Under the pieces are notes generated by a model that was not told the origin of the DNA, did no database searches, and saw nothing but the letters and a program-made list of their open reading frames with translations. Made by a program: the position numbers and the translations under genes. A DNA stretch of 64,000 bases from Thiomonas sp. FB-6 (lineage in GTDB: Bacteria > Pseudomonadota > Gammaproteobacteria > Burkholderiales > Burkholderiaceae_C), in assembly GCF_000377645.1 (NCBI RefSeq), contig NZ_KB898471.1, positions 1 through 64,000 on the forward strand. Direction: 5' to 3'. Of this stretch, positions 4,823-52,560 are shown piece after piece. Within the stretch, counting starts at the first letter, position 1, and each line of letters begins with the position of its first letter.

Positions 4823-6298
4823 TCATCGCGGCGACGCGCCCTGCTCCTGCGCCAGCAGGTAATGCACCAGCAGCGGCACCGGGCGCCCGGTGGCCCCCTT
4901 CTCGGCGCCGCTCTTCCACGCCGTGCCGGCGATGTCCAGGTGCGCCCAGCGATAGGCCTTGGTGAAGCGCTGCAGGAAACAGGCCGCGGTGACGCTGCCG
5001 CCGGCGCGCCCGGCGATGTTGGCGACGTCGGCGAAGCGCGAACGCAGGCCCTCGGCGTAGTCCTCGCCCAGCGGCATGCGCCAGCAGGGGTCCTGGGTCT
5101 GGCGCCCGGACTCCAGCAGCGCCTCGGCCAGCGCGTCGTCGGGGCTGAACAGCCCGCTGTTGACGTGGCCCAGCGCGATCACGCAGGCGCCGGTGAGGGT
5201 GGCGATGTCGACCACGCTGGCGGGCTTGAAGCGCTCGGCGTAGTTCAGCGCGTCGCAAAGGATCAGGCGCCCCTCGGCGTCGGTATTGAGGATCTCGATG
5301 GTCTGCCCGGAGCGGCTGGTCACCACGTCGCCGGGCTTGACCGCCGTGCCGCCGGGCAGGTTCTCGGTGGCGGGAATCAGGCCCACCACGTTGATGGCCG
5401 GACGCAGGCGCGCGAGCGCCTCGAAGGCGCCCAGCACCGAGGCGGCGCCGCACATGTCGAACTTCATCTCGTCCATCTCGGCGCCGGGCTTGAGCGAGAT
5501 GCCGCCGCTGTCGAAGGTGACGCCCTTGCCCACCAGCACGTGGGGGGCCTGCTTCTTCGCCGCGCCTTCGTAGCGCAGCACGATGAACCGCGGCGGCTGC
5601 TGCGAGCCTTGCGCCACCGCCAGCAGCGCGCCCATGCGTTCGCGCTCGATCTCGGCGCGCCCGAGCACTTCCACCTTCAGCTTGTGGCGCTTGCCCAGGT
5701 CCTGCGCGACCTTGCCCAGGTGCGCGGGGGTGCAGTGGTTGCCCGGCAGGTTGGCCAGGTTGCGGCACAGGTCCACGCCGGCCTGCACGGCCACCGCGCG
5801 GTCCAGGCGCGCGCGCGCCGCGGCGGCCTGGCGCGACGGCGCGAGGATCTGCACCGACTCGACGCGGCAGGCCGGATCGGGGTCGGGCTTGCGCGTGGCG
5901 CTGTAGACGTAGGCGAAATCCCCGAAGGCGCGCACCGCGGCCTCAATCACCGGCTGCTGGCCGTCGGCGCAGGCCAGGTGCACCTGCGCGGCGGCGCGGC
6001 CCTTCAGCGCCGTGCAGGCCGCGGCGGCGGCCTTGCGCCAGGCGCGCGCGTCGGTGGGGGCGGCGCCCAGCCCCACCAGCAGGGTGCGGCGGGCGGCCAG
6101 GCCCGGCACGCGGCCGAGCAGCAGGGTGTTGCCGACGGCGCCGGTGAAGTCGCCGTCCTGGCGGGCCTCGGCGACGGCGGCGTCGACCGCCTCGGCGTCG
6201 GCCAGGCCGCTGCCTTCGGCGGATTGCTGCAGGAAGACGACCAGGCAATCGCTGCGTAGCGAAGACAAGGCTTTCAGGGGGGCTATGCTAAATTCCAT
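4823..6298 (-). CDS. pepA: Leucyl aminopeptidase (cytosol aminopeptidase, M17)
   Basis: A 491-residue M17 metallo-aminopeptidase that removes N-terminal residues, with two metal ions in a hexamer. The N-terminal macro-like domain is followed by the catalytic domain: VGKGVTFDSGGISLKPG (metal-binding Lys/Asp), DMCGAASVLGAFEA, and the family signature NTDAEGRLILCDAL. E. coli PepA also binds DNA in XerCD recombination; whether this one does is not visible. The ATG at 6298 has AGGAG five bases upstream. Upstream lies the divergent lptF gene across 159 bp, a conserved arrangement in gamma- and betaproteobacteria. Confidence 0.96.
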   Translation of the reverse strand: MEFSIAPLKALSSLRSDCLVVFLQQSAEGSGLADAEAVDAAVAEARQDGDFTGAVGNTLLLGRVPGLAARRTLLVGLGAAPTDARAWRKAAAAACTALKGRAAAQVHLACADGQQPVIEAAVRAFGDFAYVYSATRKPDPDPACRVESVQILAPSRQAAAARARLDRAVAVQAGVDLCRNLANLPGNHCTPAHLGKVAQDLGKRHKLKVEVLGRAEIERERMGALLAVAQGSQQPPRFIVLRYEGAAKKQAPHVLVGKGVTFDSGGISLKPGAEMDEMKFDMCGAASVLGAFEALARLRPAINVVGLIPATENLPGGTAVKPGDVVTSRSGQTIEILNTDAEGRLILCDALNYAERFKPASVVDIATLTGACVIALGHVNSGLFSPDDALAEALLESGRQTQDPCWRMPLGEDYAEGLRSRFADVANIAGRAGGSVTAACFLQRFTKAYRWAHLDIAGTAWKSGAEKGATGRPVPLLVHYLLAQEQGASPR

Positions 6299-6457
6299 GA
6301 GGGCTCCTGACGTGGCTTGGCCCATTATTCCACCGGCCGGGCCCCCGTGTCTCGCCAGTGTGTTCCACGGGTGCCGCGCGCGCCTCGGCGGCATGCCCGG
6401 AGCCGAGCCGTCGAGGAGCGCGAACCCGGCCCCCGCATTCCGCCACCACCCATCCCG

Positions 6458-47618: not shown

Positions 47619-48920
47619 TCAGTTCGATGGGCCCGTGCGCAGCACGCGGTCCTGCAGGCGCTTGAAGCCGATGAGCTTCATCACGTACTTCTCGTAGATG
47701 GGCTCGGAGTTTCCGGTGCGCATCTTGCGCATGAAGTACTTCTCGAAGGCGATCTTGGCCAGGTGCACCCACTTGCCCGAGCCGAACCAGTTGACGTCGC
47801 GCGGCGGGATCTGCGGAATCGCCGCGAAGGCGGCGCCGGTGGTGCCGAAATCGGCCAGGCAGATGGCCTGCCAGGTGCCCTTGTGGGTGGGCTGGGCGCC
47901 CGCCAGCTGCTCCTCCAGGTTGTGCACGATGGCCGTGACCATGGACTCGATCATGAAACCCGTCTTGGGCACGCCGCAGGGGACCGGCGTCGGGCCCACC
48001 GGGGGAATGGCGATGCACACCCCCGCGGAGTAGATGTTCGGGTACTTCGGGCTGCGCTGGTGCTCGTCGACGATGACGAAGCCGCGCGGGTTGCACAACC
48101 CCTCCACCTGGGCCACCGCGTCGACACCCTTGAAGGCCGGCAGCATCATCGAATGCCGGAAGGCCAGCTCGTGCTTCTTGAACACGTTGCCCAGCGCGTC
48201 GAGTTCGTCCACGTACATCCTGCCCTGCTCGACCTTGGTGGTCTTGGCGTTGGTGATCCAGCGGATGTCGTGGTCGCGGAACTCGTGTTCCATGATGCCC
48301 TTGGAGTCTCCCACGCCGTCCAGGCCCAGATGCCCGATGTAGGGCTCGGCGGTGACGTAGGTGATGGGCACCTTGCTGCGCAGGCGCCGCTTGCGCAGCG
48401 CCGCGTCGAGGATCATCGTGTATTCGTAGGCGGGGCCGAAGCAGCTGGCCCCGGGCATGGCGCCGATGATCACCGGGCCGGGCTGCGCGCACAGGGCCTC
48501 GAAATCCTCGAAGCACTTCTCGGCGTGGTCGATGGTGCAGATGGACTGCGTGAAGCCCATGTGCGGGCCGGCTCCCTCCACCTCGTCGAAGGCCAGCTTC
48601 GGGCCGGTGGTGATGATCAGGAAATCGTAGGACACGCTGTCGCCGCCCCGCAGCCGGACGGTGCTGGAGGCGGCGTCGATGGACTCCGCCGGGCGCCCGA
48701 TGAACTCGATGCCCTTGCGCTCCAGGTACGGGGCGATGGGCAGCACCACCTGATCGCGCGAGCGCCAGCCCACGGCCACCCAGGGGTTCGAGGGCACGAA
48801 CTGGAAGTAATCGACGCTGTTGATGACGGTGACGCGATGCTCGCTGCCGAGCTTCGCCCGCGCCTCGTAGGCGGCGGGCAGTCCGCCGATGCCTGCTCCG
48901 AGTACGACGATGTGTGCCAT
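47619..48920 (-). CDS. sqr: Sulfide:quinone oxidoreductase, type I
   Basis: A 433-residue FAD enzyme that oxidises sulfide to sulfur or polysulfide and passes electrons to quinone at the membrane. N-terminal FAD site is VVLGAGIGGLPAAYEARAKL. Three Cys match the catalytic set known from Acidithiobacillus ferrooxidans SQR (C128, C160, C356): here C128 in SICTID, C160 in GASCFGPAYEY, and C354 in AICLADFGTTG. The second FAD-contact GVCIAIPPVGPTPVPCGVPK is typical. The C-terminal amphipathic helices (KWVHLAKIAFEKYFM) would hold it on the membrane. ATG at 48920 with GGAGAGGG upstream. It faces the yeeE-like pair across 317 bp with an FNR-like site. Confidence 0.93.
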   Translation of the reverse strand: MAHIVVLGAGIGGLPAAYEARAKLGSEHRVTVINSVDYFQFVPSNPWVAVGWRSRDQVVLPIAPYLERKGIEFIGRPAESIDAASSTVRLRGGDSVSYDFLIITTGPKLAFDEVEGAGPHMGFTQSICTIDHAEKCFEDFEALCAQPGPVIIGAMPGASCFGPAYEYTMILDAALRKRRLRSKVPITYVTAEPYIGHLGLDGVGDSKGIMEHEFRDHDIRWITNAKTTKVEQGRMYVDELDALGNVFKKHELAFRHSMMLPAFKGVDAVAQVEGLCNPRGFVIVDEHQRSPKYPNIYSAGVCIAIPPVGPTPVPCGVPKTGFMIESMVTAIVHNLEEQLAGAQPTHKGTWQAICLADFGTTGAAFAAIPQIPPRDVNWFGSGKWVHLAKIAFEKYFMRKMRTGNSEPIYEKYVMKLIGFKRLQDRVLRTGPSN

Positions 48921-49237: not shown

Positions 49238-49744
49238 ATGAAAACCCCTCGCCCACTGTGGAACCCCTACGTCGCCGGCGTGGTGCTGGGAGCCGCACTG
49301 CTGGCCACCTTCCTGGTCACGGGCAACGGCTACGGCGTCACCGGCGCCACCACGCTGGCCACCGCCGCGGCCGCGGGCCACGTCGACGCCTCCACGGTCG
49401 CCCCCGGCACCTACCTGCACGGGCTGTTCGACGCCGGGCTGAATCACTGGATCATCTGGGAGGTCGTCGGCCTGGCGATCGGCGCGCTGGCCGGCAGCCT
49501 GCTGGCCGGACGCTTCCGCTGGCAACTCGACGGGCCGGCCCGCGCGAAGCGCGGCCTGCGCCTGGTGCTGGCCCTGGTCGGCGGCGCGGCCTCCGGCTTC
49601 GGCGCCCGCCTCGCGCTGGGCTGCACCAGCGGCATGGGCCTGTCCGGAGGCGCCACGCTGGCGGCCGCCGGATTTCTGTTCCTGATCGGCTTTTTCGTCG
49701 CCGGCATCGCGTTCGGGCAACTCACCAAGGGGCTGTGGAAATGA
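49238..49744 (+). CDS. YeeE/YedE-type sulfur transport protein, first half
   Basis: A 168-residue membrane protein with about four helices (VAGVVLGAALLATFLVTGNG, WEVVGLAIGALAGSLLAGRF, LVLALVGGAASGFGARLALG, AGFLFLIGFFVAGIAFGQL). The conserved Cys lies in LGCTSGMGLSGGA. YeeE/YedE proteins take up thiosulfate or related sulfur species through paired Cys sites; single-chain forms are about 350 residues, and here the function is split over two genes. ATG at 49238 with GAGGAGG 10 nt upstream. It overlaps the second half by ATGA. Confidence 0.87.
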   Translation: MKTPRPLWNPYVAGVVLGAALLATFLVTGNGYGVTGATTLATAAAAGHVDASTVAPGTYLHGLFDAGLNHWIIWEVVGLAIGALAGSLLAGRFRWQLDGPARAKRGLRLVLALVGGAASGFGARLALGCTSGMGLSGGATLAAAGFLFLIGFFVAGIAFGQLTKGLWK

Positions 49745-50316
49745 GTTTTCCTCTGGGGTATACCGGCCCGCTGTCGGGCATCGTACTCGGCACCGTATTC
49801 GGCTACGTGCTGGAAAACGCCGGCTTCGGCAGCGGCTGCAAGCTGACCGCGCAGCTGCGCTTCCAGGACTGGGCTGTGTTCAAGGTCATGTTCACCGCCA
49901 TCGTGGTGGCCTCCGGCGGGCTGTACCTGCTGCAGGGCCTGGGCCTGGTGAACGTGAGCAGCGACCTGTTCGTGCCCTCGGTGTTCTTGTGGGGAAGTTC
50001 CCTGGGCGGAGTGCTCATCGGCGCGGGCATGGCCATCGGCGGCTACTGCCCGGGCACCTCGCTGGTGGCCCTTTGCTCGGGCCGGGTGGACGGGCTCGTG
50101 TTCCTGCTCGGCATCGTGCTGGGCACGCTGGGCTTCAATTCCGGCTTCGCCTCCATCAAGGACTGGGCCTGGAAACAGGTCGGCCCGGACTCCCTGACCC
50201 TGCCGCAATTGCTGCACCTGCCGGTGTGGGCCGTGTGGGCGCTGCTGCTGGCGGTGCTGCTGGTCGTGGGCTATCTGACCCGCACGGGCGGCGGCGCAAC
50301 GCGCAAGGCCGCTTGA
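49741..50316 (+). CDS. YeeE/YedE-type sulfur transport protein, second half
   Basis: A 191-residue membrane protein, partner of the preceding half. It starts LGYTGPLSGIVLGTVFGYVL, has GSGCKLTAQLRFQDWAVFKV with the first conserved Cys, GGVLIGAGMAIGGYCPGTSL with a second and ALCSGRVDG with a third, and four to five helices. Conserved Cys at a pore-like site are the mark of this thiosulfate-transport family. The ATG at 49741 overlaps the preceding stop, so the halves are coupled. Its stop codon (50314-50316) lies inside the palindrome that forms the next FNR-like site. Confidence 0.87.
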   Translation: MSFPLGYTGPLSGIVLGTVFGYVLENAGFGSGCKLTAQLRFQDWAVFKVMFTAIVVASGGLYLLQGLGLVNVSSDLFVPSVFLWGSSLGGVLIGAGMAIGGYCPGTSLVALCSGRVDGLVFLLGIVLGTLGFNSGFASIKDWAWKQVGPDSLTLPQLLHLPVWAVWALLLAVLLVVGYLTRTGGGATRKAA

Positions 50317-50328
50317 TCCGGATCAAGC
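50311..50328. promoter_or_regulatory. Perfect FNR/CRP-family palindrome before the NPCAP gene
   Basis: An 18-bp perfect palindrome GCTTGATCC-GGATCAAGC containing TTGAT-N4-ATCAA at 50313-50326, the exact FNR/ANR/DNR consensus. Its centre is 168 bp before the ATG at 50488. A TACGAT box at 50369-50374 would place a start point at 50381 and the palindrome at exactly -61.5, a usual class I activator distance. It overlaps the stop codon of the second yeeE-like half-gene. Confidence 0.75.
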
Positions 50329-50487
50329 CGCTCGCCGCCAGGCCCAACGCACGCCCCCCGCCCGGCACTACGATGATCCGCTTTGCGCCGCTCCAGGCCA
50401 GGCCGCGCGCACCAGCGCGCGCCACAAGCGCGGGCGCGCGCGGCTTGCATTCCGATTTCGTCGAACCACAGTGGAAGGAGACCGTCC

Positions 50488-50754
50488 ATGACCCAGTCCC
50501 GCATCAAGACCCGTATCAAGCTGTCCCACGCCCTGCCCGCGCTGGCGCTGGCCACCGCGGCCGTGGCGCCGATGCCCCAGGCGCTGCGCGCCGTGTCGCC
50601 CACCGCGGTGGCGCTGGCCTCGGCCAACCCCTGCGCTCCGGGCAACCCCTGCGCGCCCGGCGCAGCCAAGAAGAAGGCCAAGGCCGGCAACCCCTGCGCT
50701 CCGGCCGCCGGCAAGGCCAAGAAGAAGTCGTCCAACCCCTGCGCGCCGGCCTGA
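50488..50754 (+). CDS. Small exported protein with four NPCAP motifs and Lys-rich linkers
   Basis: An 88-residue protein, mature part about 43 residues. N-terminus MTQSRIKTRIKLSHALPALA plus following Ala-rich residues forms a long Sec-type signal with cleavage probably at ALASA. The mature part has NPCAPGNPCAPGAAKKKAKA, then NPCAPA, a linker AGKAKKKSS, and a final NPCAPA. The only four Cys all sit in NPCAP units. The ATG at 50488 has a GGAAGGAG site 8 nt upstream. I do not recognise a named family. Thiol-rich repeats suggest metal or sulfane-sulfur binding, or a precursor peptide; this is inference. No DUF692-type peptide-modifying enzyme is in view. Confidence 0.8.
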   Translation: MTQSRIKTRIKLSHALPALALATAAVAPMPQALRAVSPTAVALASANPCAPGNPCAPGAAKKKAKAGNPCAPAAGKAKKKSSNPCAPA

Positions 50755-50780
50755 TCGCGCCTGGCGCCGGCCGCCGCGGC

Positions 50781-51467
50781 GTGAGCACCCGGACCGCCCT
50801 CTCGCGCGAACAAGTGCTCGACGCGCTGCGCCGAGCGCCGCGCCAGCCCCTGCAGGCCGCGCTCGAGGGAACGCTGGAACATCTGCGCGCCAGCGCACGC
50901 AGCGGCCGCGGCGTGCTGGCCGAGCTGCTCGGCCGTGCCCAGGCCTTCGCCGAGTGGGACCACTATCCGCCGCGGGACGCGCGCGACCCCCGCAGCGGCT
51001 ACCGCTTCTACTACCACGCCCATAGCCTGCAGCAGCGGGCCCGCGGCGAGCACGGCCATTTCCACGTGTTCGCGCCGCGGCGCGCGCGCGCGGCTGAAGC
51101 CGACTACGCGCATCTGTTCGCGCTTTCGGTCGATGCCCGGGGCATGCCGCTGCGCGTGTTCAGCACCAATCGCTGGGTCACCGCCGAGCACTGGCAGGAC
51201 GCCGCCTGGACCCTGCGTGCGCTCAGGCGCCTGGACCTGTCGCAGGCGCGCCCGCGGCGCGCGGCCTCGTGGCTGCAGGACATGGCGCGACTGTTCGAGC
51301 CGCAGATCCAGGCCGTGGTGCTCGAACGCGACCGCCGCACCGCCGTACGCGCCCGCCAGCGGCCGCTGGAGCGGGTGCTCGAGGACCGCCGCAGCCACAT
51401 CCTCAGCCAGTGCGCCGTGGACCTGGGGCGCCAATTCGAATTCCTGCAGGCCGCCGGCCTCGCCTGA
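50781..51467 (+). CDS. Hypothetical protein with a histidine cluster, after the NPCAP gene
   Basis: A 228-residue soluble protein without signal peptide. The central part has RFYYHAHSLQQRARGEHGHF with H79, H81, H91, H93 and H95, like a metal-binding cluster. Later parts are VFSTNRWVTAEHWQDAAWTL and the helical SHILSQCAVDLGRQFEFLQA. I recall that similar proteins are deposited only as a domain of unknown function, but I cannot check. The start is uncertain: GTG at 50781, 26 bp after the NPCAP stop, has no ribosome site. It may be translated by coupling to the NPCAP gene. No function can be named; a link to the peptide is suggested by position only. Confidence 0.75.
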   Translation: MSTRTALSREQVLDALRRAPRQPLQAALEGTLEHLRASARSGRGVLAELLGRAQAFAEWDHYPPRDARDPRSGYRFYYHAHSLQQRARGEHGHFHVFAPRRARAAEADYAHLFALSVDARGMPLRVFSTNRWVTAEHWQDAAWTLRALRRLDLSQARPRRAASWLQDMARLFEPQIQAVVLERDRRTAVRARQRPLERVLEDRRSHILSQCAVDLGRQFEFLQAAGLA

Positions 51468-51520
51468 GGGCGCCGCGGCAGCTTGACGATCACGTTTGTT
51501 GTTCAACCCGGAGGAGAACC

Positions 51521-52507
51521 ATGAAAACCCTGAAGTACCTGCTGGCCGCTGGCATCGCCGGCGCCTGTGTACAACTGGCCTCGGCAGCCACGCTGCCCGG
51601 TCCGCTGGTCACCCCGCAATGGCTGCACCAGCACCGCTCCGAGGTGACCGTCGTCGACATCCGCGACGACATGGACACGCTGACCCGCGCGCCCAAGTTC
51701 GAGGTGGACAAGAAGACCGGCGCGAAGAAGCTGGTGGCCACCGGCGGCCACCTGGAGGGCGCGCTGTCTGTGGACTTCGGCAAGATCCGCCAGAACAAGG
51801 AAATCGACGGCAAGAAGATCGTGGCCCAGCTGCCCAGCGCCGAATACTTCACCAAGGTGATGGACGAAGCCGGGCTGGACAAGGGTAAGCCCATCGTCAT
51901 CGTGCCCACCGGCGAGACGGTGGACACGATGGACATGGCCACGCGCCTGTATTTCCAGCTGCGCTACTTCGGCGAACCCGAGGGCCAGGTGGCGATTCTC
52001 AACGGCGGGGTCAACGCCTGGCTGCAGGACGGCCTGCCGGTGAGCACCGCCAAGGTCGGCGCGCACAAGGGTGACTGGGCCGCCACCGGCGAGGACAAGG
52101 AAATCCTCGCCACGCTGGACCAGGTCAAGGCAGGCCTGCGCAGCGGCGGCGACCAGTTCGTCGACGCGCGTCCGACGCCGCAGTTCCTGGGCATCGTGGT
52201 CAAGCGCCCGGTGGACGCCGCGGGCGGCCATCTGCCCGGCGCGCGCTCCTTCCCCACCGACGCCATCGTCAAGCCGGTGGGTGCCGCGCACGAGTTCATG
52301 AGCGCCGCCGACTATCGCAAGATCTACGCCGAGTACGGGATCCAGCCGGGCGCCTCGACCGTGACCTACTGCAACACCGGGCACCTGGCCTCGGGCGCGT
52401 GGTTCGTGGACCACGAGATCCTGGGCAACCACAAGACCCGCCTGTACACCGGCTCGATGACCGAGTGGACCAACCTGGGCAACCCGACCGTGGGCCTGCC
52501 GGGCTGA
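51521..52507 (+). CDS. Exported two-domain rhodanese (thiosulfate sulfurtransferase type)
   Basis: A 328-residue periplasmic sulfurtransferase. Signal peptide MKTLKYLLAAGIAGACVQLA with cleavage near residue 22. The first rhodanese domain (TVVDIRDDMDTLTRAPKFEV, VAILNGGVNAWLQDGLPVS) lacks an active Cys in its loop (IVPTGETVDTMD). The second has FVDARPTPQFLG and the catalytic Cys in VTYCNTGHLASGAWF, ending SMTEWTNLGNPT. This inactive-then-active layout is that of classic thiosulfate sulfurtransferases. The ATG at 51521 has a perfect GGAGGAGA site. A strong terminator follows. With sqr and the yeeE-like pair it would move sulfane sulfur in the periplasm. Confidence 0.92.
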   Translation: MKTLKYLLAAGIAGACVQLASAATLPGPLVTPQWLHQHRSEVTVVDIRDDMDTLTRAPKFEVDKKTGAKKLVATGGHLEGALSVDFGKIRQNKEIDGKKIVAQLPSAEYFTKVMDEAGLDKGKPIVIVPTGETVDTMDMATRLYFQLRYFGEPEGQVAILNGGVNAWLQDGLPVSTAKVGAHKGDWAATGEDKEILATLDQVKAGLRSGGDQFVDARPTPQFLGIVVKRPVDAAGGHLPGARSFPTDAIVKPVGAAHEFMSAADYRKIYAEYGIQPGASTVTYCNTGHLASGAWFVDHEILGNHKTRLYTGSMTEWTNLGNPTVGLPG

Positions 52508-52532
52508 ACGCCGCCTGCCGGCAAGCCAGCAA

Positions 52533-52560
52533 GGGGCGCCCGCGGGCGCCCCTTTTTTTT
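52533..52560 (+). terminator. Rho-independent terminator after the exported rhodanese gene
   Basis: Perfect inverted repeat GGGGCGCCCG/CGGGCGCCCC followed by eight T. It starts 26 bp after the rhodanese stop and ends the sulfur unit. Its last T is the first base of the murB stop codon on the other strand. Confidence 0.95.

Follow-up and report, generated by a model that had tools for sequence, protein, structure and literature searches.

The bufferins (BufA1 and BufA2) and their MNIO enzymes are the closest described counterparts of the system reported here: in both, a small Sec-exported precursor with Cys motifs is encoded beside a cytosolic, metalloenzyme-like protein. Bufferins carry Sec signals, and the accessible text of a survey of the MNIO landscape describes lipoprotein signals on some of them and their fusion to cytochromes as well as to FGE domains (PMC12452194). 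A locus of this design lies in Thiomonas sp. FB-6 (contig NZ_KB898471.1, positions 1 to 64,000; this whole 64,000-nucleotide stretch is referred to as the window), where an 88-residue exported peptide composed of NPC repeats is encoded next to a protein of the family DUF6969 (PF22308). Comparison across genomes demonstrates that the peptide and DUF6969 are a real and old pair, and the pairing suggests an undescribed system that handles sulfur or metals outside the cytoplasm.

Sulfur oxidation provides further points of reference. In SoxYZ, the GGCGG swinging arm is exported and flexible and leaves its Cys exposed. The yeeE-yedE-pdo2 sulfide detoxification operon of Serratia and Acinetobacter combines a YeeE/YedE pair with sulfide-oxidation genes, as does the window (PMC7315123, accessible text), and the SoxT importers are YeeE/YedE-family relatives that import sulfur for oxidation (PMC11582611, accessible text). 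A literature search, with subscription papers and supplements outside its scope, found no paper on DUF6969 or PF22308, and none on DUF3641/ArsS. The accessible main text of the MNIO survey contains neither "NPC" nor "DUF6969" (PMC12452194). Among the matches listed, NPC-repeat strings returned none on the subject by title, and small proteins of sulfide metabolism or Thiomonas returned nothing on point.

The NPC peptide and its DUF6969 partner

The peptide gene (50488-50754, forward strand) was recognized from its translated open reading frame (ORF), its conservation within the genus, and its ratio of nonsynonymous to synonymous substitution (dN/dS). The signal is long and of the Sec type: an N-region (MTQSRIKTRIK) is followed by a hydrophobic stretch with a likely cut after VALASA46, placed by inspection, which divides the gene into a signal (50488-50625) and a mature part (50626-50751). 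NPCAP units occupy residues 47-51, 53-57, 68-72, and 83-87 (50626-50640, 50644-50658, 50689-50703, and 50734-50748) and are joined by linkers of Lys, Ala, Gly, and Ser. All four Cys lie within the units as singletons at least five residues apart, neither in CxC arrangement nor clustered. The initial annotation, which described an 88-residue Sec-type precursor with a mature part of NPCAP units and Lys-rich linkers, had the coordinates and residues right. In the 17 genus peptides caught by the detection script (from 20 loci), every Cys falls within [N/K]PCAP, that is, NPCAP or KPCAP. Purifying selection acts on the peptide gene, with dN/dS of 0.14-0.50 in 10 of 10 comparisons with the window sequence, and it is present in 26 of 28 genus genomes. 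The ORF is therefore not a chance one, and an unexpressed frame is made unlikely by the same two results. Searches against Pfam and NCBIfam at E values up to 1, with the Buf1 (DUF2282) and Buf2 profiles included, returned no match for the peptide.

The partner gene (50781-51467, forward strand) starts with GTG and encodes 228 residues with no signal peptide by inspection. Although the initial annotation considered this His-rich protein unfamiliar, a database family exists: it belongs to PF22308 with 192.9 bits and an E value of 6e-57, where the Pfam cut-off is 27 bits. The five histidines singled out earlier, H79, H81, H91, H93, and H95, are all present in the translation, and the cluster H79-H95 maps to 51015-51065 on the forward strand. 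An alignment (A1) of 29 DUF6969 sequences, gathered by protein and profile search with the His motif unused, revealed invariant H79, H81, E90, G92, H93, H95, H111, N130, R183, and D184, with H91 kept in at least 90% of the sequences. The conserved set YHxH...EHGHFH...H...N...RD resembles a metal center with an active site, and DUF6969 is a probable metalloenzyme on this basis. As candidates for anti-phage defense, the peptide and the DUF6969 protein were set aside, with no PADLOC match for either.

Of 28 Thiomonas genomes, that of the window among them, 25 encode DUF6969, and in all 25 the peptide lies 30-184 bp from it (measured between match ends). Two of the three DUF6969-free genomes also lack the peptide; in the third (G003), the only peptide is a paralogue with other surroundings (locus L198).

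Co-occurrence of the two genes, which the initial annotation had proposed as a check, is widespread in the genus and beyond. A scan of named genomes confirmed at least 575 DUF6969 relatives, of which the 80 nearest to the query were used. These best 80 and five loci picked from 167 plasmid records, with 47 Burkholderia plasmid records left out, make up a set of 85 loci, which therefore leans toward relatives of the window. ORFs were counted when two or more NPC fell within a span of 60 residues, and 47 of the 85 loci have such an ORF within 6 kb of DUF6969. Setting aside the 20 Thiomonas-like loci leaves 65, of which 27 are positive. In every positive locus the nearest such ORF is at most 1.3 kb away; beyond 2.5 kb from DUF6969, where the 85 loci together offer 675 kb of sequence, there is none. 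Weaker repeats fall below this test, with one NPC in L119 and APCAA/APCSA in L133 (Sinorhizobium). By inspection, lipoprotein-type signals are present in L071, L083, and L110. As a separate observation, peptides upstream of DUF6969 carry APC[A/S]A units alone in the Sinorhizobium locus and mixed with NPC in L117 (Rhizobiales).

Of 398 genomes drawn evenly from Pseudomonadota, 20 contained DUF6969, and an NPC- or PC-repeat ORF lay within 1.5 kb in 11 of these, the window's included; one further DUF6969 genome (G411) has an NPC profile match 1.5 kb off. Taking the two draws of 398 as the same genomes (their handles agree), the NPC profile matched 47 in total: DUF6969 carriers account for 9 (of 20) and genomes lacking it for 38 (of 378), a difference with Fisher p 1.3e-4. 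The profile rests on 14 peptides taken from DUF6969 loci and misses some real ones, e.g., those of L038 and L040. The association also extends in trans. The 38 loci without a local NPC ORF yielded 27 genomes for searching, and 16 of the 27 had an NPC profile match elsewhere; two positive controls matched as well. Nine of these 16 matches were readable, and all nine prove to be NPC-repeat ORFs that begin in a signal-like manner. A DUF6969 tree with 89 rows, from which 12 near-copies had been removed and in which four weak peptides were scored positive, shows NPC adjacency in most major branches and in clustered form, with 8 changes versus 30 in shuffles, on a topology with many weak forks and a midpoint root.

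Sulfur genes, cytochromes, and bufferin loci

Five forward-strand genes run in the window from two half-size YeeE/YedE-type sulfur transport proteins (49238-49744 and 49741-50316, both PF04143) through the peptide and DUF6969 to an exported double-domain rhodanese (51521-52507; Pfam match, signal by inspection), a sulfurtransferase whose catalytic Cys likely lies in YCNTGHLAS. An intrinsic-terminator-like hairpin of 10 pairs (52531-52554) with a T run (to 52560, forward strand) follows the rhodanese; three such sites were found in the stretch versus 1.6 in shuffles. A scan for sigma-70 promoters found nothing. Divergent to the set stands a sulfide:quinone oxidoreductase (SQR; 47619-48920, reverse strand) with 588 bits to the solved reductase 3sz0. 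The exported sulfurtransferase, the yeeE-like pair, and the divergent sqr were thus all correctly named in the initial annotation.

Part of this context recurs elsewhere. Fifteen loci outside the genus keep the order of the window: a gene related to the second YeeE half is followed by DUF6969 and the rhodanese, and an NPC peptide stands between YeeE and DUF6969 in all 15, with at least two NPC in 14 and one in L119. These loci include Polynucleobacter, Lysobacterales, Nevskia, and Quisquiliibacterium. Across the 85 loci, sequence clusters at the positions of the two YeeE halves each occur in 33, the first-half cluster being assigned outside the genus by sequence clustering rather than by Pfam, and the rhodanese cluster occurs in 41. 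SQR was detected in 16 of the 20 Thiomonas-like loci, the other four being contigs that end early, and within 6 kb in none of the 65 loci outside this set. The expected linkage to sqr and yeeE therefore holds in part: the yeeE/rhodanese context recurs outside the genus, and SQR was seen only in Thiomonas-like loci.

NPC repeats are not confined to small peptides. Among the ORFs of loci L029-L184, 104 distinct ones contain three or more NPC, and 27 of these carry CxxCH. Seven of the CxxCH proteins were scanned, giving four matches to the SoxA/TsdA cytochrome c domain (PF21342), two to cytochrome P460 (PF16694), and one protein with no match. Over 796 units the motif reads N-P-C-[A/N/S/G]-[P/A/M]-[K/C], and Pro precedes 488 of 533 Cys in stand-alone NPC ORFs. 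A single family (f57) accounts for 33 of the 47 NPC-positive genomes of the even draw; its members encode NPC peptides, mostly NPC cytochromes too, and no DUF6969 was seen in them. A multihaem cytochrome stands beside the NPC ORFs in f57 loci L166, L167, L168, L170, and L171, and in the last four of these the NPC ORFs include SoxA/TsdA-type cytochromes. In a Rhodocyclaceae metagenome-assembled genome (L126), an ArsS-type gene, an NPC cytochrome, an NPC peptide, a multihaem cytochrome, and DUF6969 occur together.

A direct connection to bufferins emerged from Thiomonas itself, where several genomes encode a second NPC peptide. The copies in G016 and G017 are intact, and each immediately precedes a BufA1-type gene (PF10048) that is accompanied by an MNIO gene (PF05114), at loci L195 and L197. 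PF10048 was scanned in G017, the G016 copy is 90% identical, and MNIO_BufB (NCBIfam) scored below its cut-off. A peptide with the same leader and one NPC unit or none stands before BufA1/MNIO in G005, G008, and G012, so that MNIO-linked paralogues occur in 5 of 22 MNIO-bearing genus genomes, two of them with intact repeats. A DsbG-like gene (NCBIfam DsbG, below cut-off) lies near the second peptide at L191, L195, L196, L197, and L198. The window's genome has a BufA1-MNIO locus (L207), containing its one MNIO, on another contig (G000:C5), and only one NPC peptide match. Patatin-like or C92-peptidase genes are found near some of the second peptides at L191, L195, L196, L197, and L198, and 65-residue peptides that lack Cys but have a leader (LTxLSPI) resembling the one on the NPC peptides lie upstream of bufferin genes at L212, L213, L215, L217, and L218.

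Proposed role and alternatives

The initial annotation had raised the possibility of a modified peptide with the His protein as its modifying enzyme, and this reading is favored; the bufferin/MNIO neighbors of two paralogues lend it support. The NPC peptide and DUF6969 would be a precursor and its partner, working like a bufferin with another enzyme; we tentatively propose, at somewhat less than even chances, that DUF6969 acts on the NPC cysteines in the cytosol before export and that the product is a periplasmic buffer for sulfane sulfur or soft metals. Pairing, motif, gene order, and the conserved His set are observed; we infer from gene content and conservation that DUF6969 binds metal and acts on Cys, and what the peptide would carry, as we do each chemical step that follows. 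The peptide would be made with its Sec signal, and DUF6969 would meet the precursor in the cytosol and alter its cysteines by oxidation, heterocycle formation, or protection. Export and cleavage of the altered peptide would follow. Once periplasmic, it may bind sulfane sulfur or soft metals, for instance Cu(I), at its reactive sulfur sites. Given the window gene set, the likely load would be sulfane sulfur from sulfide oxidation: SQR would yield polysulfide, peptide and exported rhodanese would exchange sulfane sulfur, and the YeeE pair would move sulfur inward. Elsewhere, the same NPC repeats may act as arms on SoxA/TsdA-type or P460 cytochromes.

Several observations weigh against this proposal. 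The meeting of peptide and enzyme before export, which the mechanism needs, is a presumed step. The whole EHGHFH stretch is invariant in a second alignment (A2) of 79 DUF6969 sequences, partly by construction because the scan's search pattern was EHGHFH itself, and a plasmid relative outside A2 (L131) has DYGHFH in its place. Comparison of the DUF6969 protein and the 79-row profile with PDB sequences gave chance matches only, with no solved relative, and membership among the MNIOs was ruled out at profile level (hhalign of A2 versus eight Thiomonas MNIOs, probability 0.2%). Three of the five MNIO-linked paralogues retain a single unit of the repeat or no unit at all. The NPC ORF test was negative in 38 of the 85 DUF6969 loci, and 11 of the 27 DUF6969 genomes searched in trans had no NPC profile match at all. 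Conversely, the 38 genomes of the even draw with NPC proteins but no DUF6969 include the 33 of f57. At four f57 loci (L167, L168, L170, and L171), the NPC ORFs stand beside an ArsS-type radical SAM gene (TIGR04167, 467 bits in L168) and a methyltransferase that is presumably ArsM-like; L165 and L169 have neither these nor the multihaem cytochrome. DUF6969 also occurs in settings of other kinds. A second copy lies between HupH and HypF in a [NiFe]-hydrogenase cluster of G022 and beside HupH in that of G010 (L192:5627-6439 and L193 about 5836-6321), with no NPC ORF listed at either. On Azospirillum plasmids (L130 and L134), it directly follows an MlaE/MlaD-type lipid transporter operon and no NPC is present, and Rhodospirillales loci without NPC place it with transporter genes (we assume TAXI-TRAP), FGE-like genes, and DUF2336-type genes. 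DUF6969 without NPC and NPC without DUF6969 imply either that DUF6969 has more than one client or that its role is broader than NPC.

An exported FGE-like protein lies near DUF6969 in 20 of the 85 loci, mostly alphaproteobacterial (L086, L091, L098, L106, L113, and others); the three scanned match PF03781, and the sequences viewed contain a GCG[V/I]CR stretch.

Three alternatives were considered. The peptide may be an unmodified periplasmic carrier of sulfane sulfur, its flexible, Lys-flanked Cys being loaded through the rhodanese from polysulfide or thiosulfate and passing the sulfur to the YeeE pair, with DUF6969 acting elsewhere, for instance on cytosolic sulfur or metal. The order of YeeE and exported rhodanese kept in the Thiomonas-like loci and in the 15 outside the genus speaks for such a carrier, as do the SQR that adjoins in the genus and the fusion of NPC repeats to SoxA/TsdA-type cytochromes. 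We nonetheless regard it as somewhat unlikely: many NPC loci lack a nearby relative of the window rhodanese or YeeE, the P460 fusions need no sulfur transfer, and the tight link to DUF6969 stays unexplained.

A metallothionein-like periplasmic buffer for Cu(I), Zn, Hg, or As(III), with DUF6969 as a metal-binding partner or sensor rather than a maturase, would fit the paralogues that adjoin bufferin genes and the f57 loci where NPC ORFs adjoin the ArsS-type gene. The spaced singleton Cys of the window peptide make it unlikely, however; no metal resistance gene is present among the six window genes scanned, and the fixed His/Glu/Asn/Arg/Asp set of DUF6969 resembles an active site more. Least probable, and quite improbable in our view, is that DUF6969 serves as a general factor for metal or iron handling in the cytosol, co-opted by several exported redox systems with the NPC repeat as a spacer or anchor, which would accommodate the hydrogenase-cluster paralogues, the Azospirillum copies after the Mla operon, and the Rhodospirillales loci, but not the association in trans with NPC proteins where the genes lie apart, nor a Pro-Cys conservation that a spacer does not need.

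The proposal of cytosolic modification by DUF6969 predicts a DUF6969-dependent mass change of the NPC cysteines. If true, it would provide a second enzyme family for the recently found modification of Sec-exported proteins before export, a function for DUF6969 and its at least 575 relatives, and a concrete candidate for how sulfide oxidizers keep sulfane sulfur in the periplasm and pass it on there. A broader extension, which we put forward as rather doubtful, is that, throughout Pseudomonadota, NPC proteins and DUF6969 represent a new class of exported proteins that undergo modification, in which a metalloenzyme unrelated to MNIO makes NPC reactive toward sulfur or metal on peptides and cytochrome arms alike, forming an undescribed periplasmic relay.

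Comparison with described systems

Compared with the yeeE-yedE-pdo2 operon as given in its accessible text, the window set adds the NPC peptide, DUF6969, and the exported rhodanese (PMC7315123); a persulfide dioxygenase was not found among the six window genes scanned. SoxT is found with sulfur oxidation and regulator genes according to the accessible text, whereas the window has two half-size proteins in another gene set (PMC11582611). The NPC units differ from the SoxYZ arm in motif and protein, and as repeats they give several arms per protein.

Bufferins remain the nearest system. Like a bufferin, the peptide is a precursor with a Sec signal (by inspection) and conserved Cys motifs; some of its relatives are lipoprotein-like or cytochrome-fused, and FGE-like proteins, which are fused to bufferins in the accessible survey text, are neighbors of DUF6969 (PMC12452194). 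Sec signals, lipoprotein signals, cytochrome fusions, and MNIO-adjacent paralogues are the grounds on which the peptide may be said to work like a bufferin. It differs in matching no Buf family and in having DUF6969 (PF22308) rather than MNIO (PF05114) as its window partner; an MNIO gene beside an intact precursor occurs only for the paralogues of G016 and G017, and no DUF2063 protein was found among the six window genes scanned. Judged by sequence and by enzyme, the NPC peptide is not a bufferin, though it is alike in design. An exported Cys-motif protein with a cytosolic partner is a kind already known.

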